A stretch of 39,257 nucleotides of DNA from Opitutaceae bacterium (GTDB taxonomy: Bacteria; Verrucomicrobiota; Verrucomicrobiia; Opitutales; Opitutaceae). Of the stretch, positions 2,406 through 34,692 are shown piece after piece (the first letter of the stretch is position 1; every line of letters starts with the position of its first letter). The position numbers and the translations under genes were made by a program. A model generated the notes under the pieces. It saw nothing but the letters and a program-made list of their open reading frames with translations, was not told the origin of the DNA and made no database searches. The stretch covers positions 1-39,257 of the forward strand of contig JANJTQ010000212.1 in NCBI GenBank assembly GCA_024711005.1, in the 5' to 3' direction.

Positions 2406-2423
2406 GGACGGGAGAAGGGTCGC

Positions 2424-5982: not shown

Positions 5983-6887
5983 GCGGCGCCTCCCTTCCAC
6001 GCGATCAGCAACGCAAAGACGCAAAACAGGAACGCCGTGGTGAGCAGCAAGGGCGCGCGGCGAAACGCAAACCGCGCCAGCAGCGACTCGACCAGTCCGA
6101 CTCCGATCGTCACCGCGAGGACCGCACCGATCAACGCGAACGTCGCCATGAGCGGTTGCATGTTGCCCAACGGCAGCACCGCTTCGGCCAGCAGCACCGC
6201 GAACAACATCAGCTTCATCGACGCGCCGTGCAGGATCACCGCCAGTGGAGGTCCGCTGTGATCGAGCACCATGGCCTCGTGAATCATCGTCAGCTCCAGA
6301 TGGGTGTTGGGATCGTCGAAGGGCACGCGGCTGTTCTCGGCGAGCAACACGGTGAACAGTCCGGCCGCCAGCAGCACCGCGCCCGCGCCGGCCGAGGTCG
6401 CCAGCATCTCGTTTAACGTGACACTGCCGCTCTGCACGCCGAGGGACAGGACCGCCGTCATCAAAGCGGCTTCGGACAGGACGGCGTAACTCACCTCGCG
6501 CGCCGAACCCATGCCTTCGAACGCCGAGCCCGTCTCCATTGCCGCCCACGTCGTGCAGAAACGCGCCACGGCGAGAAGATAGATGAATAACAAAACGTCT
6601 CCGTGAAAACCGGGCGCGCCGCCGACGGGGCCGAGCGGGAGGAACATCGCCGCGACCAACACGGCGATCCATGCGACCGCCGGTCCAATGATGAAGGCGG
6701 GCGAGGCGAGCGTGCTCATCACGACGCTTTTTTTCCAGAGACGGGCCAGGTCGTAGTAGAGTTGTCCCATGGGCGGACCTTGGCGTCCGGCGACCCAGGC
6801 TTTGACCTTGTTGATGATGCCGGGCAGGGCCGGGGCGAGTAACAGCCACACGGCCAGCCGGAGGATAAATTCGAGAATCGATGTCAT
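5979..6887 (-). CDS. Ehr complex NuoH/HyfC-like membrane subunit
   Basis: 302 residues starting MTSILEFILRLAVWLLLAP at 6887; the ATG overlaps the stop of the NuoL-like gene. Landmarks of the NuoH/HycD family: GIINKVKAWVAGRQGPPMGQ near the N-terminus (the R-x-G-P loop facing the peripheral arm), FLPLGP, the loop FEGMGSAREVSYAVLSEAALM, and AENSRVPFDDPNTHLELTMIHEAM with its acidic residues. HycD has practically the same last motif. This subunit anchors the cytoplasmic arm (large subunit plus NuoB) to the membrane. All of its signature loops are intact even though the cofactors it normally serves are missing in the partners. That suggests the complex is functional and not decaying. Confidence 0.88.
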   Translation of the reverse strand: MTSILEFILRLAVWLLLAPALPGIINKVKAWVAGRQGPPMGQLYYDLARLWKKSVVMSTLASPAFIIGPAVAWIAVLVAAMFLPLGPVGGAPGFHGDVLLFIYLLAVARFCTTWAAMETGSAFEGMGSAREVSYAVLSEAALMTAVLSLGVQSGSVTLNEMLATSAGAGAVLLAAGLFTVLLAENSRVPFDDPNTHLELTMIHEAMVLDHSGPPLAVILHGASMKLMLFAVLLAEAVLPLGNMQPLMATFALIGAVLAVTIGVGLVESLLARFAFRRAPLLLTTAFLFCVFALLIAWKGGAA

Positions 6888-8833: not shown

Positions 8834-9537
8834 GAGTTCGCCTCCTTGTCGCCGGCGCCGGGCGACGTGGCATCGGCTAGTGAGACCGCGTCGAAGATCT
8901 CGTTGTCGGGCGCGGCTCGTACCAACAGTTCGCGCAAAGGTCCGCGTGCAAGCAGGCGGCTGAGTCGTCCCAGCAAGTCGAGGTGTGCGCGTGGCGAGGG
9001 TGCGATGAAAAAGAGCAGACGCGTGATCGGCGCCTTATCTGGCGTCTTCTCCGCGAGGCGCAGTGCGTCGCGTAGAAACAAAATCGCCACGACTCCGGAA
9101 TCGTGCCCCAGCGTGATCCGTGTGGACGGGTGGGGCAGGGCGAAGCCGCCGCCAACAGGTGCGAAGGTGATGGAGTCGGAGGTCTTGAGACGCTGGGCCA
9201 GGAGCTGCCGGATCGAAGGCGTCGCTCCGCACAGGGAGCCGACGATTTTTTGAAACGCCTCCGTGACACCGGAGCCGGGAATGTCGCGATGAATGCCGCC
9301 GGCGCGCAGCAACGGTTCGAGCCGCCAGCCCGCCCCGATGCGAGGTGCCTCCGGGGCCAGAAATCCCACGTGCGCCGCGAGGCCGCGGGTGGCGGCCCAG
9401 TTGGCGACCTGCGAACGATCGAACAACAACCGTCCGCGATCCGGGGTATGCGGAAGCCCCTCGTTGCGTATCCAGTCTTCAACGACTTTCTCCGTCACGC
9501 CGAACGACTCCGCGATTTGGATGAGATTCAGATACAT
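8830..9537 (-). CDS. HTH plus PTS EIIA-type (PtsN-like) regulatory protein
   Basis: 235 residues, ATG at 9537. Residues 1-50 (MYLNLIQIAESFGVTEKVVE, then W..NEGLPHTPDRGRLLFDR) form an excisionase/MerR-like helix-turn-helix. Residues about 90-225 match the PTS EIIA type-2 domain, with the phosphorylatable histidine in GGGFALPHPSTR (H136), followed by the ITRLLFFIAP and HLDLLGRLSRLLARG elements seen in PtsN. EIIA-Ntr-type proteins sense phosphorylation state and regulate transporters or regulators by contact. Here the gene is embedded between the two NuoL-like genes (22 bp after copy A, ATGA overlap with copy B). A regulatory subunit or regulator specific to this complex or to SulP is likely. 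No sugar-specific EIIB or EIIC gene is nearby. Confidence 0.75.
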   Translation of the reverse strand: MYLNLIQIAESFGVTEKVVEDWIRNEGLPHTPDRGRLLFDRSQVANWAATRGLAAHVGFLAPEAPRIGAGWRLEPLLRAGGIHRDIPGSGVTEAFQKIVGSLCGATPSIRQLLAQRLKTSDSITFAPVGGGFALPHPSTRITLGHDSGVVAILFLRDALRLAEKTPDKAPITRLLFFIAPSPRAHLDLLGRLSRLLARGPLRELLVRAAPDNEIFDAVSLADATSPGAGDKEANS

Positions 9538-9559
9538 CGTGGGATTACAGAAATCGGTT

Positions 9560-11509
9560 TCATCGCCCGCCTCCGATCAACACAACCGCGGCCACCGCGG
9601 CGAGGCCAAGCAGCAGATAGAGCAGATACGCTTGCAGGCGGCCGTGCTGCATCCGACGCGCGGCTCCGGCGAGCTGCATCACCGCGCCGCCCGCCGGTCG
9701 GACGATGGTTTCGAGCACCGTTTCCGGCGTGTGCTCCTCAAAATGCGCCTGGGCCGGGAAGGTGTCCATCACGCGGCCCTCATGTCGCTGCGGGTGCAAG
9801 ATCCAGGTGAACCATTGAGTGATGATGTTGGCGAAGGAGCCGGCGGTGTATTGCATTCGCGCGGTCGGAGCTGCGTATCCGCAATCCCACGTCCCGGACC
9901 GGCGAAGACCGTGTTTGTTCGCGAGTTTCCAGAGGACGACCGCTCCCGCGATCGCCAAAACGGTGAGAACAACATGGCTCCGCCCGAGAACGCCGAGCGA
10001 AGCCGGGGCGGCGATTTCGCTCCATGCCGGGTTCCAGATGGAGGCGGTCCGCGCCATCGCCGGCCAGACGAGCACCGGGGCCAGTCCGATGGTCACGCAG
10101 GCCCCGGCCAGCAGCAGCATCGGACCGGTCATCGAACAGCCGGCCTCGTGTGCCTTTTCCGCGGCCGGAGTTCGCGACGCACCCAAAAAAACGATTCCGC
10201 AAACCTTGATGAAGCACGCGAGCGCCAAGGCTCCGGTGACGGCCAGGAGCACGGCGGCGAACACCGCGGCCAGCGCGGCGTTTCCTTGGGAGTTCACCGC
10301 ATCAAACAAGCCCAGATAGACCAGCCATTCGCTGACGAAACCGTTCAATGGGGGCAGTCCGGAAATCGCCACTGCGCCGAGGGCGAAGAGTCCGGCCGTC
10401 CACGGCATTGATCTCCACAATCCGCCGAGACGGCTCATCTCGCGGGTGCCCGTCGTGTGCAGGACCGAGCCGGCGCCGAGAAAGAGCAGTGACTTAAACA
10501 AACCGTGATTCCAGACGTGAAGAAGTCCGCCTGCCAAGGCCAGCCGTCCCCAGGTTGCGTTGTCCTGCCGCGCCGCGATCAAAGCGAATCCGAAGCCGAT
10601 GAAGATGATGCCGATGTTCTCGACACTATGGTAGGCGAGCAGGCGTTTGAGATCGTGTTGACCCAAGGCGAACGCGACGCCCAGCACCGCGCTGACGACG
10701 CCGAGGGAGGCGATGACCCAGCCGGCCGCGCCCGGAACCGGCAGCCATCCGCTGAAACGGACAAGACCGTAAATGCCCAGTTTGATCGTGACGCCCGACA
10801 TGATGGCCGAGACATGGCTCGGTGCGTTGGCATGCGCCGACGGCAGCCAGATGTGCAGCGGAAACAGCCCGGCCTTCACACCGAAACCGAACAACGCGAG
10901 CCAGAACAGCGGGGCGAGCGAAGTCTCGTCACGCATGGGTCCGAGATCCCACGTTCCGGTGCGCGCCGCCAGAATCGCGAAATACGCGAAGAGGCAGAGC
11001 GTCGCCGCGTGCGAAGTCGCCAGATACAACCAACCCGCGGCCCGCACCTCGCGGCGTTGCCGGTCAAGCGTGACCAGAAAATAGCTCGCGACGGTGAAAA
11101 GCTCCCAGGCGATAAGAAAATGAAGCCCGTTCGAAGACAACAGCACCAATGCGATCGAGGCAATCAGGACGCTCCACCACACCCGGCCCGCCCGGGCCGA
11201 GCGCGGATGCGCGGCATCGGTCCAATATTCGCGGGAATAGACGGTCCCGGCGCTTGCCACCACGGCGAGCAGGACAAGAAACAGAGCGCTGATGCAATCG
11301 AGCCGGAAGTGAAGCGTTTCTCCGCCGACCAGGAACCCACCCCGCCAAATCCAGGCTTCGCCGCCTGCGAGTACATTGACCGCGGCCGTCAACGCCGCGA
11401 CATTTCCCGCGAGCGTTGCCGCCAACCAACACCGCGGACTCGAGCTTCCGCTGACGATTGCAACCAGCAAGGCGACTCCGGCGGTGAAGAGGAGCGCGCC
11501 GATAGTCAT
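9560..11509 (-). CDS. Ehr complex NuoL/HyfB-like antiporter subunit, copy A
   Basis: 649 residues, ATG at 11509, lying 49 bp behind SulP. It contains the same ordered motifs as copy B: SSNGLHFLIAWELF, FGVKAGLFPLHIWLPSAHAN, SHVSAIMSGVTIKLGIYG, HDLKRLLAYHSVENIGIIF, LLHVWNHGLFKSLLFL, CGYAAPTARMQYTAGSF and a C-terminal helix. The duplication of this subunit inside one operon probably replaces HyfD, giving three antiporter-like modules. An alternative is that copy A pairs with the adjacent SulP transporter, by analogy with the NuoL-like DabB working with DabA in inorganic-carbon uptake; no DabA-like gene is present here. Its position next to SulP, apart from the core genes, makes this worth testing. 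Confidence 0.87.
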   Translation of the reverse strand: MTIGALLFTAGVALLVAIVSGSSSPRCWLAATLAGNVAALTAAVNVLAGGEAWIWRGGFLVGGETLHFRLDCISALFLVLLAVVASAGTVYSREYWTDAAHPRSARAGRVWWSVLIASIALVLLSSNGLHFLIAWELFTVASYFLVTLDRQRREVRAAGWLYLATSHAATLCLFAYFAILAARTGTWDLGPMRDETSLAPLFWLALFGFGVKAGLFPLHIWLPSAHANAPSHVSAIMSGVTIKLGIYGLVRFSGWLPVPGAAGWVIASLGVVSAVLGVAFALGQHDLKRLLAYHSVENIGIIFIGFGFALIAARQDNATWGRLALAGGLLHVWNHGLFKSLLFLGAGSVLHTTGTREMSRLGGLWRSMPWTAGLFALGAVAISGLPPLNGFVSEWLVYLGLFDAVNSQGNAALAAVFAAVLLAVTGALALACFIKVCGIVFLGASRTPAAEKAHEAGCSMTGPMLLLAGACVTIGLAPVLVWPAMARTASIWNPAWSEIAAPASLGVLGRSHVVLTVLAIAGAVVLWKLANKHGLRRSGTWDCGYAAPTARMQYTAGSFANIITQWFTWILHPQRHEGRVMDTFPAQAHFEEHTPETVLETIVRPAGGAVMQLAGAARRMQHGRLQAYLLYLLLGLAAVAAVVLIGGGR

Positions 11510-11558
11510 GGCCGGGCCCCGGGGCGGGGATGCGTTCCTTTGTTTTGATGACCGACGT

Positions 11559-13400
11559 TCATTTTTGGATACCGTGGTGTTCGCGTGACGACTTCGGTGA
11601 GTTCAGCACCCGATGCGTGCGATCGAGCGCGGCGGAGAGTTCCTGGCGGGCGGATTCGAGTTCCCGTTTTTGTGCGTGAAACGCTTCGTGCGCCTCCAGC
11701 GGTTCCTCGACCGGCGGAAGACCGAGAATCTCCCGGGCGCGAGCGAGCGCCGCGGTGATGTCGGCGCACACGTTTTCGTGTCCGAGACGATCCAGAAACC
11801 CTGCGTTCTCCATCGCCGCATACGGTTGGGTGTGCGGTGCGCTGAGCAGCAGGTGTTTGCCCTTGGCGCGCAGTTTGTGATGCAAATCCTCCAGCGCCTG
11901 CAGTCCGGTCGCGTCGATCGCGAGCACCTTGCGCACCCGCAGGATCAAGATCTCCGGTTCTTGCTTCGCCCGCTTCAACTCGTCGTCGAGCTTGTCGACC
12001 ACACCGAAGAAGAAAGCGCCAAACACCCGAAAAACGAGCACCCCGTCCGGCACCTGTTTGCCGACCAGGGAATGGTGCGAACCCTCGGTTTCGGTGGCTT
12101 CGTCGACCGCGGTGATGCGAGTGGTTTCGGCGATGCGTTTGACCATCAGGAGTGATGCGAGCACGACGCCGACTTCGACGGCGAGCGTGAGGTTTGTCAG
12201 GACCGTGAGTGCGAGGGTGGCGAGGAACACCGACGAATCGCTGAGCGGCCAGCGGGAGAGGCGGGTGAACTGTTTCCACGAGACCATCCGATAGGAGGCG
12301 ACCACGAGAATCGCGCTCAAGGTGGCGAGTGGGATATGGTTCACCAGCGGGGCCGCCATCACCAGCATCCCGAGCAATAAAGCCGAATGAACGATGCCGG
12401 CCACCGGCGAGCGCGCGCCCGAGCGGACGTTGACCACCGAGCGGGCCACCGCGCCGGTCGCGGGGATGCAGCCGAACAGGGGGCCGATCATGTTGCCGAT
12501 CCCCTGCGCGACGAGTTCCTGATTGGAATCGTGTTTGTCGTCGAGGATACCGTCGGTGACGACCGCGCAGAGGAGTGCCTGCATCGCGATCAGCAGGGCG
12601 ATGGTGAACGCCGGCTGGATCAGATCTTTCACCGTGGCCCAATCGGTATGGGGGATCTGAAGCGCGGGGAGTTGCCGTGAGAATTCGCCGAACGCGGAGC
12701 CGATGGTCGCGAGTTCCCACCGATCGTTCAACCCGAGGCCCGCGACGATGATCGTCGCCAGCACCAAGCCCACCATGGCTCCGGGCACATAACGCGACAG
12801 TCGGGCCGGCCACAGTCCGATCACCGCGACCGAAACCACCGACAACGTCACGGTCGGCCAGTGAACGGCGTCGAAATGCATCGCGAGTGTTTGAACCTTC
12901 CCGAGGAAATCCACGGGCATTTTTTCCACGTTGAGTCCGAAGAAATGTTTGATCTGCGAACTGAGGATCAGGATCGCGATGCCCTTGGTGAACGCGCGTG
13001 AGACCGGATACGGGATGAAGCGGATGATCGACCCCAGCCGGGCGAAACCCATCACGCAGAGCATCGCCCCGGCCATGAGGGTGCAGAGCATGAGTCCCCC
13101 GGGCCCGAAGCTTTGCAGCACGCTGTAGGTGATGATGACGAACGCGCCGGTCGGGCCGGCGATCTGCACGCGGGAACCGCTGAAAACGGCGATCAGCCCG
13201 CCCCCGATGATCGCGGTGAACAGGCCTTGCTCGGGCTTCACTCCCGAGGCGATGGCGAACGCGATCGAGAGGGGAAACGCCAGGGTCATGACGTTGAGCC
13301 CCGCCATGAAGTCCCGCCGGAAAGCGGCCCTGGAATAGCCGCGAAGCGCCTCGATCAATTTTGGCCGGAAGAAAAGGGAAGTCGTCGACGTGAGTTTCAT
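11559..13400 (-). CDS. SulP-family anion transporter with STAS domain
   Basis: 613 residues, ATG at 13400. The N-terminal part is the SulP membrane domain: FMAGLNVMTLAFPLSIAFAI ASGVKPEQGLFTAIIGG, then GSRVQIAGPTGAFVII, the family signature. The STAS domain spans about 440-560, with LRVRKVLAIDATGLQALEDL: the usual D-x-S-G phosphosite is D-A-T-G. The C-terminus (about 570-613) is charged and probably a coiled coil. SulP proteins carry sulfate, bicarbonate or dicarboxylates in symport with H+ or Na+. It is preceded at 10 bp by the unknown gene and followed at 49 bp by NuoL-like copy A, so it is part of the Ehr operon. No sulfate-assimilation gene is near. Bicarbonate is plausible but unproven. 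Confidence 0.9.
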   Translation of the reverse strand: MKLTSTTSLFFRPKLIEALRGYSRAAFRRDFMAGLNVMTLAFPLSIAFAIASGVKPEQGLFTAIIGGGLIAVFSGSRVQIAGPTGAFVIITYSVLQSFGPGGLMLCTLMAGAMLCVMGFARLGSIIRFIPYPVSRAFTKGIAILILSSQIKHFFGLNVEKMPVDFLGKVQTLAMHFDAVHWPTVTLSVVSVAVIGLWPARLSRYVPGAMVGLVLATIIVAGLGLNDRWELATIGSAFGEFSRQLPALQIPHTDWATVKDLIQPAFTIALLIAMQALLCAVVTDGILDDKHDSNQELVAQGIGNMIGPLFGCIPATGAVARSVVNVRSGARSPVAGIVHSALLLGMLVMAAPLVNHIPLATLSAILVVASYRMVSWKQFTRLSRWPLSDSSVFLATLALTVLTNLTLAVEVGVVLASLLMVKRIAETTRITAVDEATETEGSHHSLVGKQVPDGVLVFRVFGAFFFGVVDKLDDELKRAKQEPEILILRVRKVLAIDATGLQALEDLHHKLRAKGKHLLLSAPHTQPYAAMENAGFLDRLGHENVCADITAALARAREILGLPPVEEPLEAHEAFHAQKRELESARQELSAALDRTHRVLNSPKSSREHHGIQK

Positions 13401-24724: not shown

Positions 24725-25438
24725 ATGTTGATCCCTCTGACAATCGCCGCCGTCGTCGGCTATCTGCTGGGCGCCATTCCGTTTGGCTGGCTCGTGGCGC
24801 GCGCCCACGGGATCAATATCTTTGAACACGGCAGCAAGAACCCCGGTGCGACCAACGTGAAACGGGTTCTCGGCAAGAAGGCCGGGAACACGGTGTTTGC
24901 GCTCGATGCGGTCAAAGGCGCGCTGGCCGCAGGCTGGCCGTCGCTCGTCGCCCGCTGGGCCGCGGGCCAGGCGTCCAACGTTCGCAACGCGGAGAGCTGG
25001 ACGGTGTTCACCGCCAACGTGAAGGTGCTTACGCCAGATCTGGTGATTCCGGTCGCCGTCACCGGCCTGCTGTGCGCCGTCCTGGGTCACAGTTTTTCCT
25101 GCTTCACCCGCTTCAAAGGCGGCAAGGGTGTGGCGACGTCCGCCGGCGGTTTTGTGGTGCTCATGCCGATCGTGACGTTGATCGCGCTCGCGGTCTGGCT
25201 CGCGACTTTCTTCACGTCCCGCTACGTGTCGCTCGCCTCGATCCTCGCCGCCGTGGCGATTCCGGTCGCCGCGTTTTTTCTCAACGAGCACAAGCTCGTC
25301 GTGATCCTCGCCGCCGTGATCGGAACCTTCGTGATCCTTCTGCACCGCGCCAACATCAAGCGCCTGCTCAACGGCACCGAAAACCGTTTCGTCAAAAAAT
25401 CCGTCGTCACCGCGGCTGCTCCCGAAGGGCAAGCGTAA
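24725..25438 (+). CDS. plsY: Acyl-phosphate:glycerol-3-phosphate acyltransferase
   Basis: 237 residues, ATG at 24725. PlsY moves the acyl group from acyl-phosphate to glycerol 3-phosphate at the inner membrane, the first acylation in phospholipid synthesis. All three signature loops are present: YLLGAIPFGWLVAR, then GSKNPGATNVKRVLGKKAG (motif 1), GHSFSCFTRFKGGKGVATSAG (motif 2), and SLASILAAVAIP with the C-terminal LLHRANIKRLLNGTENRF (motif 3). Five or so membrane segments. It carries an extra loop of about 25 residues after WPSLVARWAAGQ compared with the compact E. coli protein, a common variation. It lies 92 bp after serA, separated by a repeat. Confidence 0.95.
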   Translation: MLIPLTIAAVVGYLLGAIPFGWLVARAHGINIFEHGSKNPGATNVKRVLGKKAGNTVFALDAVKGALAAGWPSLVARWAAGQASNVRNAESWTVFTANVKVLTPDLVIPVAVTGLLCAVLGHSFSCFTRFKGGKGVATSAGGFVVLMPIVTLIALAVWLATFFTSRYVSLASILAAVAIPVAAFFLNEHKLVVILAAVIGTFVILLHRANIKRLLNGTENRFVKKSVVTAAAPEGQA

Positions 25439-25492
25439 GGGTTTGAAGGTTGGGCCGGACCCGGGCCCGGGGCATGGTTTTCAGAGGCAGGC

Positions 25493-25551
25493 CGCCTGCT
25501 TGCAGGCGCGGTTCGGAGCGTGAGCGAGTGGAGGACTGTCGCTTCGCTCGA
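25493..25551. terminator. Hairpins between convergent plsY and GH13 genes
   Basis: CGCCTGC (25493-25499), TT, GCAGGCG (25502-25508) forms a strong short hairpin. GAGCG-TGA-GCGA pairs with TCGC-TT-CGCTC just beyond it. Both lie in the 153-bp gap between convergent genes and probably end both transcripts. Confidence 0.4.
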
Positions 25552-25591
25552 AACGCGGCCTACGGCGAAAAATTCACTTCGAAAACATGGG

Positions 25592-27403
25592 CTATGTTTT
25601 CAGCCGGAACATCACCACGCTCCACTTGGGCAGGTTGATGTAGATGCGGCCGTCGGGTTGGGTGAACGGCTCGTGAAACGCGTTGCCCGCGCCGTCCCAA
25701 CCGCCATACGCGGCGTCTTGCGTGCAGAGGATCTGCGTCCATTGGCCGGGTTGGCCACCGGTGGAGACGCCATAGTTGCGGGCCGTGAAATCGGTGTCGC
25801 CCATGTTGGCGGTGACGAGAACCACGTCGCCGCTGGCGGCATCCCAGCGCTTGATCCCGATCACGCCGTTGAAGCGGTCGTCGTGCGGGATATCCAACCC
25901 CGGCGCACGCAGCGCCGGGATCCCGGTGCGCAGGCGGTTGCAGTCGCGGGTAAGCTGTTGCATCGCCCGACCATGGTCGTCGTCCGCCATTGCCCAGTCG
26001 AAACGGTGATCGCCGCGGATATCCGGACCGTCGTGCCAGTAACCCCAGGCCGCGCTGGGCGCGCCCATCAGGCATTCGCTGCCCATGAAGCACAGCGGCG
26101 TCCCGGCGATGCCAACATTAAGCGCCCAGCCGAGGCGGCACTTCGCCCGGGCGAACCAGTTTTCACGTCCGCCAAAATGATCGACGAAGTAGCGGTGACG
26201 GCGATCGGCGTTCGTCAGTCCATCCTCGGCGTCGCCGCTGTTTTGGTCGCCGATGTCGTCGTGGGAACCGAGCAGATACTTCACCTGTTGCCACGGTTCG
26301 GCGTAGCCGTCCCAGCCGGCGAAACCCCGCACGCGCCCGACCGGATCGGAGCCGGTCATCGCGCGTTGAAACTCGTGATGCGCCTCGCACCACGTGGCGT
26401 CGAAGTTGCCGATGGTGGTGATCCACGGGTGGTCGGGCAGGTGCTCGGCGACGATGTATTTGCCGGGATACTCGGCCTTCAGCCGGGCAATGATGATGGC
26501 GAGGTCGTTCCCGTTCATGAACGTCGTCGCGTCAAACCGCAGGCCGTCGGCGTGGTAGCAGTCGAAATACATGACCGCGTTCTCGTAGAAGAACTGCCGG
26601 ACCTCCGGCTTATACCAAGCGGGGCCGAGTCCCCAAGGAGTGGGCTGGCCGCCTTCGAAATAAATGCCGCCGTTGTCGGTGAAGCCGTCGAATTGCCAGA
26701 GCGAGTTGTCCTGCGGGCCGGCGTGGTTGTAAACGACATCGAAAATGACCGCGAGGCCGCGGCGGTGGGCGGCGTCGACGAAGTCCTGCAGGTCGCGGGG
26801 ACTGCCGTAGGCGGACTCGGGCGCGAAGAAGAGCGCGGGGTTGTAGCCCCATGAACGCTCGGCGGCGAATTCCTGCACCGGAAGGAGTTCGACGGCGTTA
26901 AAGTCGAGCGCACGGATGTAATCGAGCTTCGCCACGGCGTCGCGGAAGGTGGCCACGGGTTTGTCGAGCCCGTCGCCCCGGCCGGCGAAGGAGCCGACGT
27001 GGAACTGGTAGATGATAAAATCGGAGAACGCCGGCGCGGTGTATTCAGACCACGGATATGCGAGATCGGAGACGACGATGGAGGCGTTGAGGTTGTCGGC
27101 GAGGCCCAGGTTGTTGAAGGAATGCAGGGTGTCGCGCGATGCCGGGTCGAGGCGTTGGAAACGGCGAGGACCGTTGGTGATTTCGTAACGGTAGACGCTG
27201 GCGACGGTGGCGCCGGGCACGGAGCCTTCCCAATAGCCGTCCGGCATGAGGGTCAGCGTGCGGCGAAGCATGGGGCCGGCGGGATTCCATGACGGCTCGT
27301 TCGGCTGCACGAGGACGTCGACCTGGTCGGCGTTGGGTGCCCAAAGTTTGAAGTGGACGCCGGAGCCGGGCAGGGGCGTGGCGCCGAGCGGGAAGTCGGA
27401 CAT
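25592..27403 (-). CDS. GH13 alpha-glucan-acting enzyme with N-terminal CBM48-like domain (branching-enzyme/alpha-amylase type)
   Basis: 603 residues from MSDFPLGATPLPGSGVHFKL at 27403. Residues 5-110 form a CBM48/E-set module (FKLWAPNADQVDVLV, YWEGSVPGATVASVYRYEI). The GH13 barrel follows, with region I DVVYNH (222-227), the nucleophile D291 in GLRFDATTF, the acid/base E320 in IVAEHLPDHP, and the third acid in GSHDDIGD (HDD 381-383). A C-terminal beta domain closes the chain (to MFRLKT). Layout and motifs are closest to branching enzymes and maltooligosyl-trehalose hydrolases, but the exact activity cannot be fixed; the catalytic triad is intact. There is no signal peptide, so it acts in the cytoplasm, presumably on glycogen or alpha-glucan. 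It is the last gene of the GMC/cupin cluster, 46 bp behind a cupin gene. Confidence 0.88.
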   Translation of the reverse strand: MSDFPLGATPLPGSGVHFKLWAPNADQVDVLVQPNEPSWNPAGPMLRRTLTLMPDGYWEGSVPGATVASVYRYEITNGPRRFQRLDPASRDTLHSFNNLGLADNLNASIVVSDLAYPWSEYTAPAFSDFIIYQFHVGSFAGRGDGLDKPVATFRDAVAKLDYIRALDFNAVELLPVQEFAAERSWGYNPALFFAPESAYGSPRDLQDFVDAAHRRGLAVIFDVVYNHAGPQDNSLWQFDGFTDNGGIYFEGGQPTPWGLGPAWYKPEVRQFFYENAVMYFDCYHADGLRFDATTFMNGNDLAIIIARLKAEYPGKYIVAEHLPDHPWITTIGNFDATWCEAHHEFQRAMTGSDPVGRVRGFAGWDGYAEPWQQVKYLLGSHDDIGDQNSGDAEDGLTNADRRHRYFVDHFGGRENWFARAKCRLGWALNVGIAGTPLCFMGSECLMGAPSAAWGYWHDGPDIRGDHRFDWAMADDDHGRAMQQLTRDCNRLRTGIPALRAPGLDIPHDDRFNGVIGIKRWDAASGDVVLVTANMGDTDFTARNYGVSTGGQPGQWTQILCTQDAAYGGWDGAGNAFHEPFTQPDGRIYINLPKWSVVMFRLKT

Positions 27404-27420
27404 GGTGGAGGAGGGGCGGA

Positions 27421-27446
27421 GAGAACGAGAAAGAGAAAGAGTGAGG
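27421..27446 (-). repeat. GAGAAC/GAGAAA-type simple repeat before the GH13 gene
   Basis: The plus strand reads GAGAACGAGAAAGAGAAAGA then GTGAGG; on the coding strand it is a pyrimidine-rich TTTCTC/GTTCTC run between the cupin stop and the GH13 ATG. The same hexamers build the arms of the hairpin before thrC (35944-36037), so this may be a recurrent intergenic element of this genome. Confidence 0.45.
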
Positions 27447-27449
27447 AAC

Positions 27450-28793
27450 TCAGTCGTAGCCGCCGAACATGAAGAGGGAGGCGGGCTCATCGAGGGCGTT
27501 GTAGAGCGCGTGAAGCTGGCCTGTCTTGCAGATGGTGAGGTCGCCGGGGAGCTTGGTTCGCACTTCAAACGCGCGGAGGCGGTCCGGATATTTCATCCAG
27601 TCGCCGACGATCATGAGCCCTTTGCCTTGGAGCAGGAAGAAGACCTCCTGGTTGTCGCGGTGGCGGTGGATGCCGATGCCGCAGTCGGGTTGGAGGATGT
27701 GGAGATCCATGTATTCGACAGCCATGAAGTCCTCGCGCTTCTGGACGTTGGCTTTCGGGCCGTTGGGTTCGGTGGGGTGCCAGGTGTTGGCGTCGAAATT
27801 CCAAGGCTCGAGCTGCCGGCCGAGTTCGGGGCTCCATTGCGCGCCGAGGGCGGAGCGGCGTTGGGCTTCGTGGTTGAAGTAGTTCGAGAAGAGATTGCGG
27901 AATTCGAGGAAGCCGACGCCGCCGTGGGGGTTTTTGCTTTGGCCGATCTGGAAGTACGAGTTCCAGCCGCGGAGCTGCATGTTGAATTCGTAAATGTAGT
28001 TCTGGCCGGCGCGGGAGTCCCAGACGGTCGCGGTCTCGTTGGCCCAGGCGAGTTCGAGGCGCAGGGCGCGGATCGGATGCATCGTATGCTCGGGCCAGCG
28101 GTTGAAGATCTGGAGCGCGCCGCCGGAGCGAATGGCGGCCTCGCGTTCCTGATCGAAGCCGGGGCCGGTGAAGGCGGAGAGGGTACCTTTGACGAGGTCG
28201 GGGCGGATTTGGATGAGACCGGCGTCGAAGGCGGCTTGGCCTTTCGGACCGAGTTCCGTCCGGATGGAGCCGCCGCCTTCGAAGCCCCAGAGCTCGACTT
28301 CGTAGCGTTGGGTGGCGGGGTTGTACGGGACAGTGATGAGGTTGGGCGTCTGGGCGTTGCCGACGCGAAGAAAGAGACGGAGGGAGGCGCCGGGGCTGCC
28401 GTTGTTAAGTTTCCAGAGTTCGGTAAAGGGGCTGTCGGCATAGCCAAGCTTGAGGAAGCTGCCGGTCCAGTCGCCGGCGGTGGCGTATCCACGGACGAAT
28501 GACATGTCGCCGAGCTCCATGCGGGCGATGTTCTGCTTTTGGAAATCGTTTTTGTTATCCTGCAGACGAGGGTCGGAGAGGTTGGGATTGTCGGAGGGGG
28601 AGTAGAGGCCGAGTTCGTCGAAGGGAATGAGGTATTGAAGGAAGTCGGGCAGGTAGTGTTCACGTTCGGCGGCGAGATCGGTCTCCTCGACGTGGCGAAC
28701 GATCTTCATGATGGGGTTGTCGGCATCGTAGCCGGGGGCTTGGCCGGCGGGGACGGACACGAAGTTTTGCAGGTCTGACTGGACGATTTCCAT
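27450..28793 (-). CDS. Cupin-domain protein, 447 residues, in the GMC/GH13 cluster
   Basis: ATG at 28793. About 365 N-terminal residues have no recognised domain; they are beta-rich and include WGFEGGGSIRTELGPKGQAA, NRWPEHTMHPIRALRLELAW and LRGWNSYFQIGQ. The C-terminal 80 residues are a cupin. Motif 1 is G-x-H376-R-H378-x4-E383-x6-G390. Motif 2 is G417-x5-K-T-G425-x2-H428-x3-N432, where K423 replaces the usual proline. The three histidines and the glutamate can bind a metal (Fe, Mn, Zn or Ni). The next gene upstream encodes another cupin protein of similar plan with the same K change. Cytoplasmic by sequence. The enzymatic role is unknown; a dioxygenase, an isomerase or epimerase, or a sugar-binding role are the usual options. 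Confidence 0.75.
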   Translation of the reverse strand: MEIVQSDLQNFVSVPAGQAPGYDADNPIMKIVRHVEETDLAAEREHYLPDFLQYLIPFDELGLYSPSDNPNLSDPRLQDNKNDFQKQNIARMELGDMSFVRGYATAGDWTGSFLKLGYADSPFTELWKLNNGSPGASLRLFLRVGNAQTPNLITVPYNPATQRYEVELWGFEGGGSIRTELGPKGQAAFDAGLIQIRPDLVKGTLSAFTGPGFDQEREAAIRSGGALQIFNRWPEHTMHPIRALRLELAWANETATVWDSRAGQNYIYEFNMQLRGWNSYFQIGQSKNPHGGVGFLEFRNLFSNYFNHEAQRRSALGAQWSPELGRQLEPWNFDANTWHPTEPNGPKANVQKREDFMAVEYMDLHILQPDCGIGIHRHRDNQEVFFLLQGKGLMIVGDWMKYPDRLRAFEVRTKLPGDLTICKTGQLHALYNALDEPASLFMFGGYD

Positions 28794-28833
28794 GGCGGGA
28801 GGGGTGAGGGCGAAGGACTGAGAGTGGAGGTTT

Positions 28834-28966
28834 TAACGCAAAGGCGCGGAGTCGCGGAGGTCGTAAAGGAGACGGATTTTTTTAACCGCGAAGGTCGCTA
28901 AGGGGCGCAAAGGGGAAGCCGCTGGAGTTGAGGGTCCGGCTTGGCGAGCTTTGCGTCTTTGCGTTA
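28834..28966. repeat. Intergenic repeat cluster with inverted TAACGCAAAG ends
   Basis: In the 184-bp gap between the two cupin genes, TAACGCAAAG (28834-28843) is matched by CTTTGCGTTA (28957-28966). Between them lies a second related phrase, TTAACCGCGAAGGTCGCTAA, then GGGGCGCAAAGG. Such 'AACCGC-AAGG-CGC-AAAG' phrases look like decayed copies of a dispersed non-coding repeat. Confidence 0.5.
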
Positions 28967-28977
28967 AGCGGTTCGGA

Positions 28978-30123
28978 TCAGTTGGCGTGGTAGAGGAAGG
29001 CGACGAATTTGAGCGGTGTGTTGCCCGGGTTGCGGATGCCGTGGATGCCGCCGCTCTTGGTGTAGATGACGGAGCCTTTTTTGACGGGCACCTCGCGGCA
29101 GCGGCGGTCGCCCAGACCGAAGATGGGTTCGTCCACGACGGGGAACGCGGCGAGCGCGGGATCGTCGTTTTCTCCAACGTAGGCGACTCCCGTGCCCTCG
29201 ACGATGTAGTAGAGTTCCTCGGAGCCGATGTGCTGGTGGGTGCCTTCGGTGACGCCCGCCGGCACGGTGACCTCGTGGAAGAACACGAGGCTGGAGCCGA
29301 GTTCCTCCTGGAGGAGCCAGCGCATGTCGACGATGTTGTTGGCTCCGGCGCGCGGATGGCCGTCGCGCATCATGGCGTTGCGGTAGCGGACGGGCGCGAT
29401 CTGGGAGGCGTCGGCGAGGAAGAAGTTGCGCTGGAAGTTGATCGAGTAGTTCGACTTTTGGACGGTGTTGTTGGCGTTGTCGCTGGGCGTCTGTGTATTC
29501 GGGACCTGGATATTGCGCTGATAGAAGTTGTCCCAGCCGGACTCCTGGTCGGTGATGGTGAAGCCGGAAGGCGTGGACGTGGAGTCTTCGCGGACGGCGA
29601 TTTCGAGACGGTTGAGGGAGGGAAGGTCGGCGAGCGCGGCGTCGAAGGCGCGGATGCGGGTGATGGAGCTGTCGCGGCCGAGCATGCCGAGGACCTTGTA
29701 GTCGTGGCGGGTGCCGGGGAGCGGTTCGAGGGTTTGCCAGATCTCGGCCTGAAAGGCGTCGACCCACGGGCAGTAGATGAGGCGCACGCGGGCGGTGGCG
29801 GCGGGGCCGTTGGCGGGAAGGACGGTGACGAGCGCGATGCAGGCCTGGTTGACGAAGCGGCTGCGTTCGCGGGCCTGCTCGACGAGGCGTCCGGCGCGAT
29901 ACTCGATGCGGATGAAGGAGGAGAGTTCGAGGCCGTCCATGAAGACCGTGCCCTTCATGACCTGCATGTCGGTCTTGGAGCGGACCTCGTGGACGTTGTA
30001 ACGGTAGCGCGTGGAGCGCGTGGCGTTGAGGTATTGGGCGTGGTAGATCCGGTCGGGGAAGAAGACGATGTTGAAGATCGCGTTGGACGGATGGTCGGCG
30101 ATGGATTCGAAACGTGGGTCCAT
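28978..30123 (-). CDS. Cupin-domain protein, 381 residues, in the GMC/GH13 cluster
   Basis: ATG at 30123. Residues 1-190 are beta-rich without a recognised domain (NIVFFPDRIYHAQYLNATRS, GLELSSFIRIEYRAGRLVEQ). Residues about 280-381 hold a cupin. Motif 1 is GTH296-Q-H298-x3-E302, ending G310. Motif 2 is G350-x5-K-S-G358-x2-H361-x3-N365, again with lysine (K356) where the family has proline. The shared deviation and the similar size and layout suggest that this gene and the 447-residue neighbour arose by duplication and then diverged strongly. It is preceded by the GMC gene with a 42-bp gap. No export signal is visible. Substrate and reaction unknown. Confidence 0.75.
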   Translation of the reverse strand: MDPRFESIADHPSNAIFNIVFFPDRIYHAQYLNATRSTRYRYNVHEVRSKTDMQVMKGTVFMDGLELSSFIRIEYRAGRLVEQARERSRFVNQACIALVTVLPANGPAATARVRLIYCPWVDAFQAEIWQTLEPLPGTRHDYKVLGMLGRDSSITRIRAFDAALADLPSLNRLEIAVREDSTSTPSGFTITDQESGWDNFYQRNIQVPNTQTPSDNANNTVQKSNYSINFQRNFFLADASQIAPVRYRNAMMRDGHPRAGANNIVDMRWLLQEELGSSLVFFHEVTVPAGVTEGTHQHIGSEELYYIVEGTGVAYVGENDDPALAAFPVVDEPIFGLGDRRCREVPVKKGSVIYTKSGGIHGIRNPGNTPLKFVAFLYHAN

Positions 30124-30165
30124 GGTGTGAAAGAGGGCGGGAGGTCGTGCGCGCGAGCGGCGGGG

Positions 30166-31977
30166 TCAGATGCGGGTTTTGAGAATGTCGGCCACGCGGA
30201 AGGCGTTGGCTTCGATCGTGTGGGTGGGGTTGGCTCCGCCGGAGGTGGGCATACAGGAGCCGTCGGTGACGTAGAGGTTGTCGAAGTTCCATGCTTTGCA
30301 GCTGGCATCGAGGACGGACACCCCGGCGTTGGGGCCGAAGCGGGCGCCGCCGAGGATGTGATTGGCGATGCGCACGCCCTGGTCTTTCACGCTGCCGTTC
30401 TCGATGTTGGAACGCTGGCCGGCGGGGATGCCGAGTTCGAGGATGCGGCGGCATTGCTCGGTGATGATGTCCATCAAAACGCGGTCGTGCGGATGCCAGT
30501 CCTTCACGATGTAGGCGTTGTTGCGGCCCCACTTGTCGGTGGAGGAGTGAAGGCGGATGTGATTTCGGAACCACGGGATCTGGTTGCCCATGAAGCTGAC
30601 GGAGAGGCGGGTGCCGAGGTCGCGATCCATCCATGCATTGAAGCCGTCGCCGATGATGGACGTGTCGCCCATGAAACCCTGCCAGAGGGAATCGAGGTCG
30701 GTGGAGCCGTGGGTGCGACCGAGCGAGAGCGGCAGTGCCTGGTCGGAGGTGTTGTTGTAGATGGCGGCGCCGGCCCAGAGGTTGTTGGCTTGGATGAAGG
30801 CGGGGGACGCGGTGAGATCGGTGGCGAAGTCGGAGTCGAGGGAGATGGATTTGTCGAAGCGCCGGCCGAGGAGCGCGACCTCGGCGCCGCCGAAGCAATG
30901 GGTGAGGAAGTAGCGTCCGAGGAGCCCGCCGGATTGCTGGTATTGGAAACGTGCGCCGAAGTTGGCGCGGTCCTGTTCGCAAGAGAGCATGAGCAGCCGG
31001 ACCGATTCGATGGCGGAACAGGCGACGACGACGATTTTACCTTCGACGATCTGTTCCTCGCCGGAGGGATCGCGGTAGTGGACCTGATTGACGGTCGCGC
31101 CGTTGGCCGAGAGGTGGGTGACGTGGCAGTTGCAACGGAGCGTGAGCAACGGCGCGAGGGCGGGGTCGCGCAGGGTGGGGCGAAGGAGGGCGACCCACGT
31201 GTTGGACTTGTAGCCCATGGGATCGCCGTAGCGGTTAACGTAGCTGGTCTTCGGGTTCCCGGCGGTGCGTCCGCTGGGGGCGTGATCTTCGGTGATGACG
31301 GCCAGCGGGGTGCGGTAGGTGGTGCCGCCGATGGCCTCCATGCCGGCTTTGGCGAAGGCGCTGATGGGGTTGGGCGCGAGGGGCGTCTGGTATTTGTTTT
31401 GTCCCTTGAAGTCTTTGAGCTGGCCCTGGGTGGTGCCGTTGAGGCCGACGAGTTCCTCGACCTTCAGGTAGTAGGGCTCGATGTCGTCGTAAGTGAAGGG
31501 CCAGTCGATGATGGAAACATCGGGATCGGTGAAGCGGTTGGCGGGGAGGTTGGCGCGGCCCTGGTTGAAGGAGGCGAGGCGGAAGTCCTCGCGGGTGAAA
31601 CGCAGGTGCACCGCGCCGTAGAGTTGGGTGCCGCCGCCGACGACCTGCGCGGTGAAGCCCTCGGTGGTGGCGATGGGATTTTGTTCATCGAGTCCGGCGT
31701 AGATGTGCGGCTCGTCGTTGAGGTCGGGCTCGACGTGCGACGGGAAGTAGGGGGCGCCGCGATTGGCAACGCCAGGGACGTCGATGATTTTCTCGGTGCC
31801 GTAGCCGAAGAGCTCGTCCCGTTTGAAATCGGAGAGGCCAGTGGGCGACTCGTCCTGGGTGCGCAGGAGCGGACCCTTTTCGAGGACGAGCACGGACTTG
31901 CCGGCGCGCACCAGTTCGTAGGCGATGGGGGCGCCGCCGGCGCCACTGCCAATGATCACTGCATCGAATTTTTCCAT
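30166..31977 (-). CDS. GMC-family FAD-dependent oxidoreductase
   Basis: 603 residues from MEKFDAVIIGSGAGGAPIAY at 31977. FAD-binding GSGAGG at 10-15, VLVLEKGP, and the GMC signature stretch VVGGGTQLYGAVHLRF. The C-terminal substrate and active-site part reads VRIANHILGGARFG (catalytic His), SVLDASCKAWNFDNLYVTDG and then SCMPTSGGANPTHTIEANAF (catalytic Asn). This C-terminus is the form seen in dehydrogenases that work with a small 'gluconate 2-dehydrogenase subunit 3', such as gluconate, fructose or glucoside 3-dehydrogenase. The preceding gene encodes such a small subunit. No signal peptide and no cytochrome subunit gene are present, so the electron acceptor is unclear. A sugar-OH oxidation (for example to a 3-keto-glucoside) is inferred from these relatives. 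Confidence 0.9.
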   Translation of the reverse strand: MEKFDAVIIGSGAGGAPIAYELVRAGKSVLVLEKGPLLRTQDESPTGLSDFKRDELFGYGTEKIIDVPGVANRGAPYFPSHVEPDLNDEPHIYAGLDEQNPIATTEGFTAQVVGGGTQLYGAVHLRFTREDFRLASFNQGRANLPANRFTDPDVSIIDWPFTYDDIEPYYLKVEELVGLNGTTQGQLKDFKGQNKYQTPLAPNPISAFAKAGMEAIGGTTYRTPLAVITEDHAPSGRTAGNPKTSYVNRYGDPMGYKSNTWVALLRPTLRDPALAPLLTLRCNCHVTHLSANGATVNQVHYRDPSGEEQIVEGKIVVVACSAIESVRLLMLSCEQDRANFGARFQYQQSGGLLGRYFLTHCFGGAEVALLGRRFDKSISLDSDFATDLTASPAFIQANNLWAGAAIYNNTSDQALPLSLGRTHGSTDLDSLWQGFMGDTSIIGDGFNAWMDRDLGTRLSVSFMGNQIPWFRNHIRLHSSTDKWGRNNAYIVKDWHPHDRVLMDIITEQCRRILELGIPAGQRSNIENGSVKDQGVRIANHILGGARFGPNAGVSVLDASCKAWNFDNLYVTDGSCMPTSGGANPTHTIEANAFRVADILKTRI

Positions 31978-32078
31978 GGAAGACGGATCGTTTGGGACGT
32001 TGCGAAAAAGGGATGCCGGCCGATGCGGTGGGTCGGACGACAGGGAGCGGGGACGTGGGGCGCGAGGGCGACGGGAAC

Positions 32079-33140
32079 TCAGCCGCGATACTCGGTGCTG
32101 GTGCCCCAGGGTTTTTCGACGCCCTGGCGCCAATCGAAGGGCGGGAAACGCTCCGCGAGATAATCCCATCCATAACCCGCGGAGTTGCCGCCGTATTTGG
32201 GATGACTGAAGGCGCCCATCAAGGTGTGCCGCCGGAGGAGCCTCAGGAAGTAGGAGGGGTTCGCGTAGGCGTTGAAGTTCCAGCCGGGAACGTTGTTCGC
32301 CGCGAGGTCGTTGTAGAGGGCCACGTACATCTCCTCGGGGACGTCACGCGGTTCCTGATACGGGTTTCGCTGGCGAAGCAGGGTGTTGATCTGCGCGAGA
32401 CAGACCTTGTAACCGGCCCGCTGGTGCTGCTCGGGACCGGCGAGGAGTTTATCGATGTAGTTGACCACGCCGAGGGAGAGATCGAGCCGGTAGACGCGGC
32501 CGCGGGATCCTCCGAGTTTGGACGGGTCGAGGTTCTCCAGAAAAATGCGACTCTCGCGGGAGTTGAACGGAAGGATGTGATTGGTGAGACGCTGGAGAAG
32601 GATCTGCTCCCAAAGCTCGAAGGTAACGGCCTGCGTGCAGTAATCGGTCCAGAAATAGGACCAGCGTTCGTCGCTGCCTTGCGGACGCGGATTGTGGATG
32701 TTTGCCGCGAGCCGATGCCGGGTGTTCACGGGGTCGAGCACCGGCAGGTTGTCGACGAGGTAGAGATAGTCGTAGATCCGCCGCGAGGGCAGTCGTACGG
32801 TCACGGCCCAGTAACGAGAATTCTCGATGCGTACGAGGGCGATGGGGTTGCGGGAACCGTCCATGTCTCCGATGACGCTGACCGTCTGGGGGTGGCGGGC
32901 GTTGTCTTCGACGCGGTAGACGAACGTGACGAGATTCCAGTCGAGAATGGCCTGTTCGTTGTTGGGATCGAAGAACGGCTCGACCACCGGAAAGCGCCAT
33001 CCCTCGGGAAAACGGCCTTGGTTCGGCGAGGTGAGATGCCCGAAGTAATTGTGGCGGGCCTCGGGATCGGTCCGCGCGAGGTGTTTCGCGGATTGGTTGT
33101 AAACGGACTGGGCAAGGGTGGGTAGAACGTCGACGGCCAT
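32079..33140 (-). CDS. Gluconate-2-dehydrogenase-subunit-3-like protein fused to an E-set/CBM48-like domain
   Basis: 353 residues from MAVDVLPTLAQSVYNQSAKH at 33140; the frame to 33194 is open but contributes nothing recognisable. Residues about 65-145 look like a glycogen-binding/E-set module (LVTFVYRVEDNARHPQTVSV, IGDMDGS, RYWAVTVRLPSRRIYDYLYL, VLDPVN). Residues about 175-335 match the subunit-3 pattern: a helix-rich region ending TLMGAFSHPKYGGNSAGYGW, equivalent to 'TLxGxFSDPxYGGNxxxxGW'. Such small subunits normally carry a Tat signal and escort a GMC subunit to the periplasm; here no Tat motif is seen. It is the first gene of the five-gene cluster, 101 bp before the GMC gene. The fusion to a glucan-binding-like module is unusual and points to a glycan substrate. 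Confidence 0.72.
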   Translation of the reverse strand: MAVDVLPTLAQSVYNQSAKHLARTDPEARHNYFGHLTSPNQGRFPEGWRFPVVEPFFDPNNEQAILDWNLVTFVYRVEDNARHPQTVSVIGDMDGSRNPIALVRIENSRYWAVTVRLPSRRIYDYLYLVDNLPVLDPVNTRHRLAANIHNPRPQGSDERWSYFWTDYCTQAVTFELWEQILLQRLTNHILPFNSRESRIFLENLDPSKLGGSRGRVYRLDLSLGVVNYIDKLLAGPEQHQRAGYKVCLAQINTLLRQRNPYQEPRDVPEEMYVALYNDLAANNVPGWNFNAYANPSYFLRLLRRHTLMGAFSHPKYGGNSAGYGWDYLAERFPPFDWRQGVEKPWGTSTEYRG

Positions 33141-33168
33141 GAGTGTTTTCGATGCAGAATGAGGTGAA

Positions 33169-33182
33169 CAACCGACCGGTTG
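33169..33182. promoter_or_regulatory. Possible operator upstream of the GMC/cupin cluster
   Basis: CAACCG-AC-CGGTTG is a perfect 6-bp inverted repeat, 28 bp before the ATG of the first cluster gene. LacI/GalR sites often contain AACCG/CGGTT halves, but their usual spacing is different. No regulator gene is beside it. Confidence 0.3.
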
Positions 33183-33346
33183 GATTACGGACACCTGATT
33201 GCGTTTTTAAATTCGGGCCATAGTCCGCCTAAACGCAGTTCGGTTCCGATACTCCCCGAAGGAATTTCCCCCTTCTCGTTTCGGGTGAAAACAGGGTGGA
33301 TTGGCGGAACTGCCCATGCGGTGACCTCGTCGTCGCAACCCTTCAA

Positions 33347-33376
33347 TTGACGAGCGCCTGAAACACCTTCTTACAT
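33347..33376 (+). promoter_or_regulatory. Weak sigma-70-like promoter of hom
   Basis: TTGACG (33347-33352), 18 nt, TTACAT (33371-33376). It would start transcription a few bases before the hom ATG, giving an almost leaderless message. Low certainty. Confidence 0.25.
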
Positions 33377-33387
33377 GTCCGATTCCA

Positions 33388-34692
33388 ATGAGCATTTCGA
33401 CCATCAACATCGGCATCTGCGGCCTTGGCACCGTCGGCCAGGGTGTGTGGAAGCACATCGAGGCCAACCGTCCCGCGCTCGAATCGCGGATCGGTGTCAC
33501 GCTCAACCTCGCCCGCGCGTCCGTTCGCGACCTCAAGAAGAAGCGTTCCGTGCGTGTCGCCGCGTCGAAACTCACGCTTGATCCGCTATCGATCGCGACG
33601 GATCCCTCCATTCACGTCGTCTGCGAGTTGATCGGAGGAACCACGCTGGCCCGTGAGGTCACGCTCGCCGCGCTCAAGGCCGGCAAGACCGTGGTCTCGG
33701 CCAACAAGGCGCTCCTCTGCAAATACGGTCCCGAACTCTTCGCCGCCGCCCGCAAGCACGGTGGACACTTCTTCTTCGAGGCCTCGGTCGCCGGCGGTAT
33801 TCCCATCATCAAGGCGCTTCGCGAGGGCCTTGTCGCCAATCGCTTCAAGCTGATTTACGGCATCCTCAACGGTACGTGTAACTACATCCTCACGCGCATG
33901 GAGCGCGAAGGGCTCTCGTATCCCGAGATCCTCAAGGAGGCCAAGGAACTTGGTTATGCCGAGGCCGACGAGTCGCTCGACGTCGAAGGCTGGGACACCG
34001 CCCACAAGGCCTCCATTCTCGCCTTCCTCGCGCATGGTACCTGGGTGCCGACCGAAAAAATGCTCATCGACGGCATTACGCGGATCACCCAGGCCGACCT
34101 CTCCTTCGCACGGGAGAATGGTTATGCGATCAAGCTTCTGGCCGTCATCACGCGGGAGATCGACACCGGCGAGGTCTTCGTGCGCGTTCACCCGACGCTC
34201 ATTCCCCGCACCAAGGTTTTGGCCAACGTCAACGAGGTCTACAACGGCATCTCCGTTACCGGCGACGTTGTCGGGGAAACCGTCTACATCGGTCGCGGCG
34301 CCGGCCAGGACCCGACCGCGAGCGCCATCATCAGCGATATCGTGGACGCCGTGATTCTGCTCAACCGCGGCAACTTGCACCTGCCCGAACTGGCCGAGGT
34401 GCGCGCCCGGCTCACCCCGTTGCAAAGCATCACCGGTCGTTATTACCTGCGCCTTGAAGTAAAGGATGAACGCGGCGTGCTCGCAAAGATCGCCGGCGCC
34501 ACCGCCAAGTTCGACGTAAGCATCGCCAGCGTTCTCCAACGTCCCAGCGAGACGCCCGGCGCCGCCTCGTTGATCCTCACCACCCACCAATCCAACGAGA
34601 AGGACATCCGCGCCACCATCGCCCGGCTCAAGAAACTGTCCTGCGTTCTTCGCGACCCGATGCTGCTTCGCATCGCCGACTTCGCCGGCTGA
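33388..34692 (+). CDS. hom: Homoserine dehydrogenase
   Basis: 434 residues, ATG at 33388. It reduces aspartate semialdehyde to homoserine with NAD(P)H, the branch point to threonine and methionine. The Rossmann motif is INIGICGLGTVGQGVWKHI (6-24). The conserved active-site block is GGIPIIKALREGLVANRF, then YGILNGTCNYILTRM and AKELGYAEADESLDVEGWDT AHK, with the catalytic Asp and Lys. The C-terminal 80 residues (YYLRLEVKDERGVLAKIAGA) form an ACT domain, as in threonine-sensitive monofunctional enzymes. It is the first gene of hom-lysC-thrC, 29 bp before lysC. Confidence 0.97.
   Translation: MSISTINIGICGLGTVGQGVWKHIEANRPALESRIGVTLNLARASVRDLKKKRSVRVAASKLTLDPLSIATDPSIHVVCELIGGTTLAREVTLAALKAGKTVVSANKALLCKYGPELFAAARKHGGHFFFEASVAGGIPIIKALREGLVANRFKLIYGILNGTCNYILTRMEREGLSYPEILKEAKELGYAEADESLDVEGWDTAHKASILAFLAHGTWVPTEKMLIDGITRITQADLSFARENGYAIKLLAVITREIDTGEVFVRVHPTLIPRTKVLANVNEVYNGISVTGDVVGETVYIGRGAGQDPTASAIISDIVDAVILLNRGNLHLPELAEVRARLTPLQSITGRYYLRLEVKDERGVLAKIAGATAKFDVSIASVLQRPSETPGAASLILTTHQSNEKDIRATIARLKKLSCVLRDPMLLRIADFAG

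Follow-up and report, generated by a model that had tools for sequence, protein, structure and literature searches.

In the glucose dehydrogenase of Burkholderia cepacia (BcGDH), a 3Fe-4S cluster held by Cys212, Cys218 and Cys222 hands electrons on to a haem subunit, and the small subunit has been described as a twin-arginine translocation (TAT) hitchhiker (PMC6719666). Glycoside 3-oxidases of soil bacteria are clustered with CarB/CarC-type deglycosidases (PMC10646112), and in fungi pyranose oxidase yields glucosone and a pyranosone dehydratase leads on to cortalcerone (PMC7910265); PMC4795551 names three cupin dehydratases, among them aldos-2-ulose dehydratase/isomerase (AUDH). Here we describe a block of five genes, A to E, from an Opitutaceae bacterium (assembly GCA_024711005.1). 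It lies on contig JANJTQ010000212.1, of which the whole stretch analysed, 39,257 nucleotides long, is called the window. We tentatively interpret the five genes, with a confidence somewhat short of even, as one laterally inherited, cytoplasmic carbohydrate-oxidation pathway, in which, most likely, a glucosyl compound would be oxidised in the cytoplasm to give a keto sugar and cupin chemistry would follow.

The block comprises five complete open reading frames (ORFs), all on the minus strand and running A-B-C-D-E from 33140 to 25592, with intergenic gaps of 101 bp (A/B), 42 bp (B/C), 184 bp (C/D) and 46 bp (D/E). This agrees with the single-strand arrangement and gaps of 42-184 bp given in the first-pass annotation, which a model had made from the DNA letters alone. 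The features are as follows.

Gene A, 32079-33140, minus strand: 353 amino acids (aa); N-terminal E-set-like (AMPK1_CBM-like) domain and Gluconate_2-dh3 (residues 222-325)
Gene B, 30166-31977, minus strand: 603 aa; GMC-family flavin adenine dinucleotide (FAD) oxidoreductase
Gene C, 28978-30123, minus strand: 381 aa; N-domain with no family match and C-terminal cupin
Gene D, 27450-28793, minus strand: 447 aa; N-domain with no family match above cut-off and C-terminal cupin
Gene E, 25592-27403, minus strand: 603 aa; CBM48, GH13 catalytic domain and Alpha-amylase_C
Segment of about 7.9 kb, 25439-33387: between plsY (24725-25438) and hom (33388-34692)

In Pfam searches, gene A matched Gluconate_2-dh3 (PF13618; 6.3e-8, 33.5 bits against a curated cut-off of 23.4) and gene B matched GMC_oxred_C (6.8e-20), with GMC_oxred_N slightly short of its cut-off (21.8 versus 23 bits), which bears out the earlier proposal of a GMC and subunit-3 pair. 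Genes C and D matched Cupin_2 (5.4e-11 and 1.5e-6), and gene E matched Alpha-amylase (2.5e-13), CBM_48 (5.2e-10) and Alpha-amylase_C. No NCBIfam family was matched above its curated cut-off by genes A-E (among the best 25 of 61 matches for gene B and the best 25 of 37 for gene E), and a codon-composition screen called no gene beyond these five in the 7.9 kb segment. The parts belong to known superfamilies and the GMC/subunit-3 pair is of a known kind; what is new is the five-gene unit, with its two unassigned N-domain/cupin families. No paper on this gene set was found in searches of an open-access library, in keeping with the earlier remark that no described pathway has it. Like the glycoside 3-oxidase/C-deglycosidase clusters, in which a GMC flavoenzyme that acts on a glucosyl group is clustered with downstream enzymes, the unit joins a GMC flavoenzyme, which would likewise act on a glucosyl group, to further genes, but in those clusters the downstream enzymes named are of the CarB/CarC type, and the word cupin is absent from PMC10646112. 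No CarB/CarC-type deglycosidase appeared among the Pfam matches of the window's five proteins; the rest of the genome was not searched for them.

The first-pass annotation had suggested looking for the same gene block in other genomes, and had held that a cluster not conserved as a unit would speak against its proposal. The search was run and the block is conserved as a unit in further genomes, so that objection falls. The A-E set was found in four of them, in one case cut off by a contig end, a recurrence that makes the gene set more than a product of chance. On plasmid pMVF16-5 of Microvirga sp. VF16 the order A-B-C-D-E is kept on a single strand, the gaps being 30, 9, 27 and 22 bp, and this plasmid was the only record matched when C, D or A was compared by tblastn with 72,556 plasmid records. 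A scan of genome contigs with the C pair alignment, which used two peptide patterns only, returned at least three loci: the Microvirga plasmid; Bradyrhizobium sp. Rc3b, where A-B-C-D lie on the same strand and a 654-aa CBM48-GH13 gene is divergent, 103 bp from A; and a 5.5 kb contig of a gammaproteobacterial metagenome-assembled genome (MAG), where A, B and C are followed by most of D before the contig ends. Among 296 genomes of the Bradyrhizobium family, a profile search picked out one further case, G433, with A-B-C-D-E on one strand. C and D accompany A and B in all five loci. Chance adjacency of the GH13 gene was rejected because such a gene adjoins A-D in 4/4 loci with enough flank to assess it, the window included (the MAG contig ends in D).

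In the alignments, identity to the window proteins was 41% for A, 62-63% for B, 52-61% for C, 48-53% for D and 31-34% for E; by BLAST, the B proteins of G433 and the window were 58.7% identical. Matches to B were found in 388 plasmid records and, among the matches listed, the Microvirga B stood at 62% and the other 29 at 28% or less. Upstream of the block, the Microvirga plasmid has a gene with DUF6538 and a weak, sub-cut-off phage-integrase SAM match. The G433 cassette is flanked (L030 3118-5660 and 13563-15467) by genes for a LysR regulator and the RuBisCO large subunit on one side and by a CitMHS-type transporter gene on the other, a neighbourhood seen in one genome only and perhaps due to chance.

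The best solved relatives of B, found in the PDB with a profile of the family, were FAD glucose dehydrogenase (7.2e-43), fructose dehydrogenase (1.5e-27), pyranose oxidase (4.9e-17) and then cellobiose dehydrogenase, and a sugar substrate for B is plausible because of these relatives. The glycines of the FAD motif, His540 and Asn583 are kept in 5/5 B proteins. The last two residues lie within conserved C-terminal GMC motifs, in the stretch aligned with 8hdd, and B has both the GMC fold and a His/Asn pair of the BcGDH type. Gene A, in which Gluconate_2-dh3 was matched by 5/5 family members (up to E = 1), is predicted to be the small partner subunit of B. A and B would thereby resemble the gamma-alpha complex of BcGDH, which also consists of a GMC catalytic subunit with the His/Asn pair and a small subunit (PMC6719666). 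Unlike BcGDH, A has an extra E-set-like domain, and the unit adds two cupins and a GH13 gene. The electron route differs too: residues 234-268 of B, which align with the Fe-S loop of BcGDH, contain no Cys in the window protein or its partners (5/5). No haem subunit was found, as judged by cytochrome families in Pfam among the five window proteins and by CxxCH motifs in 5/5 B proteins, and no cytochrome is annotated beside the Microvirga block, where the gene table is incomplete. A crude check for a twin-arginine signal in A was negative in 5/5, a lone RR (L024) falling within an over-long start. From these absences we infer that A and B form a cytoplasmic enzyme that would pass electrons to O2 or a soluble acceptor. 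In this the GMC/subunit-3 pair differs from its periplasmic relatives, which use an Fe-S and haem route. Crude checks across the five families gave no sign of export in 24/24 proteins, window proteins included, with no twin-arginine motif and, by hydropathy, no clear N-terminal signal (the most hydrophobic start was that of the Microvirga D), as expected from the first-pass view that all five proteins appear cytoplasmic.

Against the pyranose oxidase model (TIGR02462), B scored 45.7 bits, well short of the equivalog cut-off of 544.9. A distant GMC/subunit-3 pair on a Mesorhizobium plasmid (L061 475-8795) is accompanied by a sugar ATP-binding cassette (ABC) transporter, a sugar phosphate isomerase/epimerase and a Gfo/Idh enzyme, and its subunit 3 has no obvious export signal; by gene content this cluster fits sugar work and is a candidate for a keto-sugar pathway of its own.

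The two cupins that had been read as metal proteins between B and E carry the full 3-His/1-Glu set, which we take to be the ligand motif of metal-dependent cupins: His296, His298, Glu303 and His361 in C, and His376, His378, Glu383 and His428 in D, each set kept in 5/5. C and D stand for two protein families whose N-domains fall below every Pfam and NCBIfam cut-off. These N-domains without family matches, and the presence of both proteins with A and B in 5/5 loci, would also suit non-catalytic subunits, structural or regulatory, that sense metal or act as scaffolds in a large A-E complex. We consider that decidedly unlikely, since a pure scaffold would need none of the ligands that are kept throughout both families. 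A comparison of the C and D profiles was weak (probability 53%, E 1.3e-4), and a common origin, distant at best, is possible. AlphaFold models were built from four-row alignments and reached a mean predicted local distance difference test (pLDDT) score of 56 for C and 39 for D; the cupin part of the C model was the only part used, and the D model was left out. The best structural match of that part was TM1287 (1o4t; Z 15.8, root-mean-square deviation 2.0 over 113 residues), annotated as a predicted oxalate decarboxylase, which differs from C in that C has about 230 residues ahead of its cupin; resemblances to KdgF, TM1459 and sugar-phosphate isomerases were also seen.

AUDH has a propeller and two cupins on one chain. 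It was not among the phmmer matches of C or D in PDB sequences, nor was it listed among the structural matches of the C model, which was weak overall; this second absence carries no weight against a relationship. The proposed pathway would share the logic of the fungal cortalcerone route, in which a GMC enzyme oxidises the sugar and a cupin dehydratase/isomerase acts next (PMC7910265, PMC4795551), but here there are two separate bacterial cupins with other N-domains, and no sequence match to the fungal enzyme was seen. An outright bacterial counterpart of the pyranose-oxidase/pyranosone-dehydratase route seems improbable to us; in such a laterally moving cassette, E would open an alpha-glucan or maltodextrin, A and B would make a 2- or 3-keto sugar, and two successive metal cupins would turn it into an enolone or pyranone, a reactive product that might be antimicrobial.

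Gene E shares with TreZ and GlgB the CBM48-GH13 layout and the catalytic triad. Asp291, Glu320 and Asp382, which presumably fill the GH13 catalytic Asp/Glu/Asp roles, are intact in 4/4 E proteins. Window E nevertheless lies far below both equivalog cut-offs, and identification as TreZ (TIGR02402; 216.5 versus 538.8 bits) or as GlgB (NF003811; 183.8 versus 741 bits) was rejected; the source genome has a separate TreZ above cut-off elsewhere (611 bits). A tree of 19 ORFs unites the three alphaproteobacterial Es (100/100 support), and window E grouped with the other Es in 16% of bootstrap trees, a poor resolution to which the over-long starts of some ORFs and the truncation of one by a contig end may add. 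By BLAST among the ORFs compared, the best non-self match of window E is the Microvirga E (192 bits, with 151 the best outside the E set), and window E is the best match of the Microvirga E outside the alphaproteobacterial Es (192 bits, next 172).

The first-pass annotation had placed E-set or CBM48-like modules in both the first and the last gene and had proposed oxidative tailoring of glycogen or glucosides. The module in E stands, by its CBM_48 match. That in A holds for the family, 4/5 members of which match AMPK1_CBM (best 2.8e-5), but is not seen in window A taken alone, which is the non-matching member and for which Gluconate_2-dh3 is the one Pfam family matched at E values up to 1. Searched against the PDB, the N-domain of the A profile gave weak matches to an esterase module (0.16) and AMPK beta (0.66), and it is probably an E-set domain. 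Modules of this type in E and, more weakly, in A, together with the relation of E through GH13 to branching enzyme and TreZ, are what could favour oxidative tailoring of an alpha-glucan polymer, be it glycogen or some other. We regard such tailoring as very improbable: in the weak alignment with AMPK beta (E = 0.66), the A family profile has residues other than Trp at the Trp positions that we assume to be the glycogen-binding platform, so that glycogen binding by this domain is not supported, and the TreZ and GlgB scores of E fall well short of their cut-offs. The sugar half of the earlier proposal remains plausible through the relatives of B, and its glycogen half is weak.

Separately, G433 encodes a further GH13 protein of 810 aa (L065 7552-9984), adjoining an EthD-domain gene, that has no NCBIfam match at 1e-60 and that the tree puts, loosely, close to the E proteins.

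In the pathway proposed here, A and B would pair up as a flavoprotein dimer on the model of the gamma-alpha core in bacterial FAD glucose dehydrogenase, with the extra E-set-like domain of A docking substrate or partner. E would free or transfer an alpha-glucosyl unit, and B would oxidise a hydroxyl of that sugar, its electrons going to O2 or a soluble acceptor because B has no Fe-S/haem route. The keto sugar would next pass through the metal cupins C and D, one after the other, to be rearranged, dehydrated or cleaved; that they act on the keto product is a hypothesis, for which the fungal route offers a precedent, and the evidence points neither towards nor away from a 3-keto product specifically. 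Co-occurrence of the genes, domain make-up, and catalytic or metal-ligand residues conserved in every homologue aligned were observed in the sequences themselves. The pathway would be a compact one and, were its product a keto sugar or enolone, it would add a cupin-based branch to non-hydrolytic sugar metabolism.

Several points weigh against this pathway. The five-gene unit contains no transporter gene, the N-domains of C and D suggest no predicted function, and the models of both proteins were of low confidence. The low identity of window E to the other Es and its failure to join them in the tree leave its orthology without support, and recruitment of E may have happened on two occasions. 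The substrates of GMC enzymes are diverse and include many alcohols, and three of four distant GMC relatives examined have no clear sugar context: one in Sulfurospirillum lies near transposases and a toxin-antitoxin pair, one in Agrobacterium near genes for a branched-chain amino acid ABC transporter and an electron-transfer flavoprotein, and one in Azospirillum near subunit 3, a phosphodiesterase and an amidohydrolase. These GMC and gene E observations, along with the divergent orientation of E from A-D in Bradyrhizobium, lend some weight to the idea that the A-D core oxidises and reworks a non-sugar alcohol or an aglycone, and that the GH13 enzyme merely removes or adds glucose. We think this unlikely, though not far-fetched, given that the domain of A is related to carbohydrate modules in 4/5 members, that sugars are the substrates of the best solved relatives of B, and that E adjoins A-D wherever its presence could be assessed.

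The genomic site is consistent with lateral gain of the carbohydrate-oxidation cassette. In the source genome the 7.9 kb block separates plsY (G3P_acyltransf) from hom (homoserine dehydrogenase). The hom gene is present in 12/12 congeners, and in eight of these (L080-L084, L088-L090) serA, plsY and hom occur together, with no more than about 40 bp between the end of the plsY match and hom and with no match to A-E at that site at E 1e-8. Of the other four, L085 and L087 show no plsY within some 7 kb and 12 kb ahead of hom, L086 and L091 offer only about 2.4 and 1 kb upstream, and no A-E genes were seen in these stretches. The simplest reading of this distribution is that the cassette was gained by lateral transfer, the alternative being its loss in all congeners. 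That only these five genes sit at the one junction suggests that five genes suffice for the trait.

The unit is rare and scattered among the genomes searched. Full-length C was found in 1/56 relatives (the source genome itself), where three others match the cupin piece only, in 0/12 congeners, and in 1/288 genomes of the phylum (again itself). Eighteen other genomes of the phylum gave weak C matches, the best at 7e-10, of which 17 fell inside residues 240-322 and one spanned 155-328. With a limit of 1e-10 and first-look candidates only partly scored, C was found in 2/296 genomes of the Bradyrhizobium family (the genome at the centre of the set and G433) and in 1/274, 1/398 and 1/347 of three further genome sets, each time the centre genome itself; genomes overlap between these sets. 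Viral contigs searched with the single protein C gave no match.

The ends of the block (25401-25620 versus 33121-33400) share no direct repeat of at least 9 bases and no inverted repeat of 10 or more, its guanine-plus-cytosine content is ordinary (0.635, versus 0.626 in the rest of the window), and sigma-70-like promoters in 25400-33400 numbered 0, against 1.2 expected. Between C and D, at 28833-28967, lies an inverted pair, TTAACGCAAAGGCGC / GCGTCTTTGCGTTAA, spaced by 105 nt; its motif has three matches in the window at up to two mismatches, against 0.04 expected, and the pair is perhaps a repetitive extragenic palindromic (REP)-like element. Elsewhere in the window, the minus strand of 1563-13400 encodes complex-I/hydrogenase-4-like subunits (Oxidored_q6, Complex1_49kDa and two Proton_antipo_M), a phosphotransferase system (PTS) EIIA-type protein and a SulP transporter, which we would guess to form an ion- or bicarbonate-linked complex.

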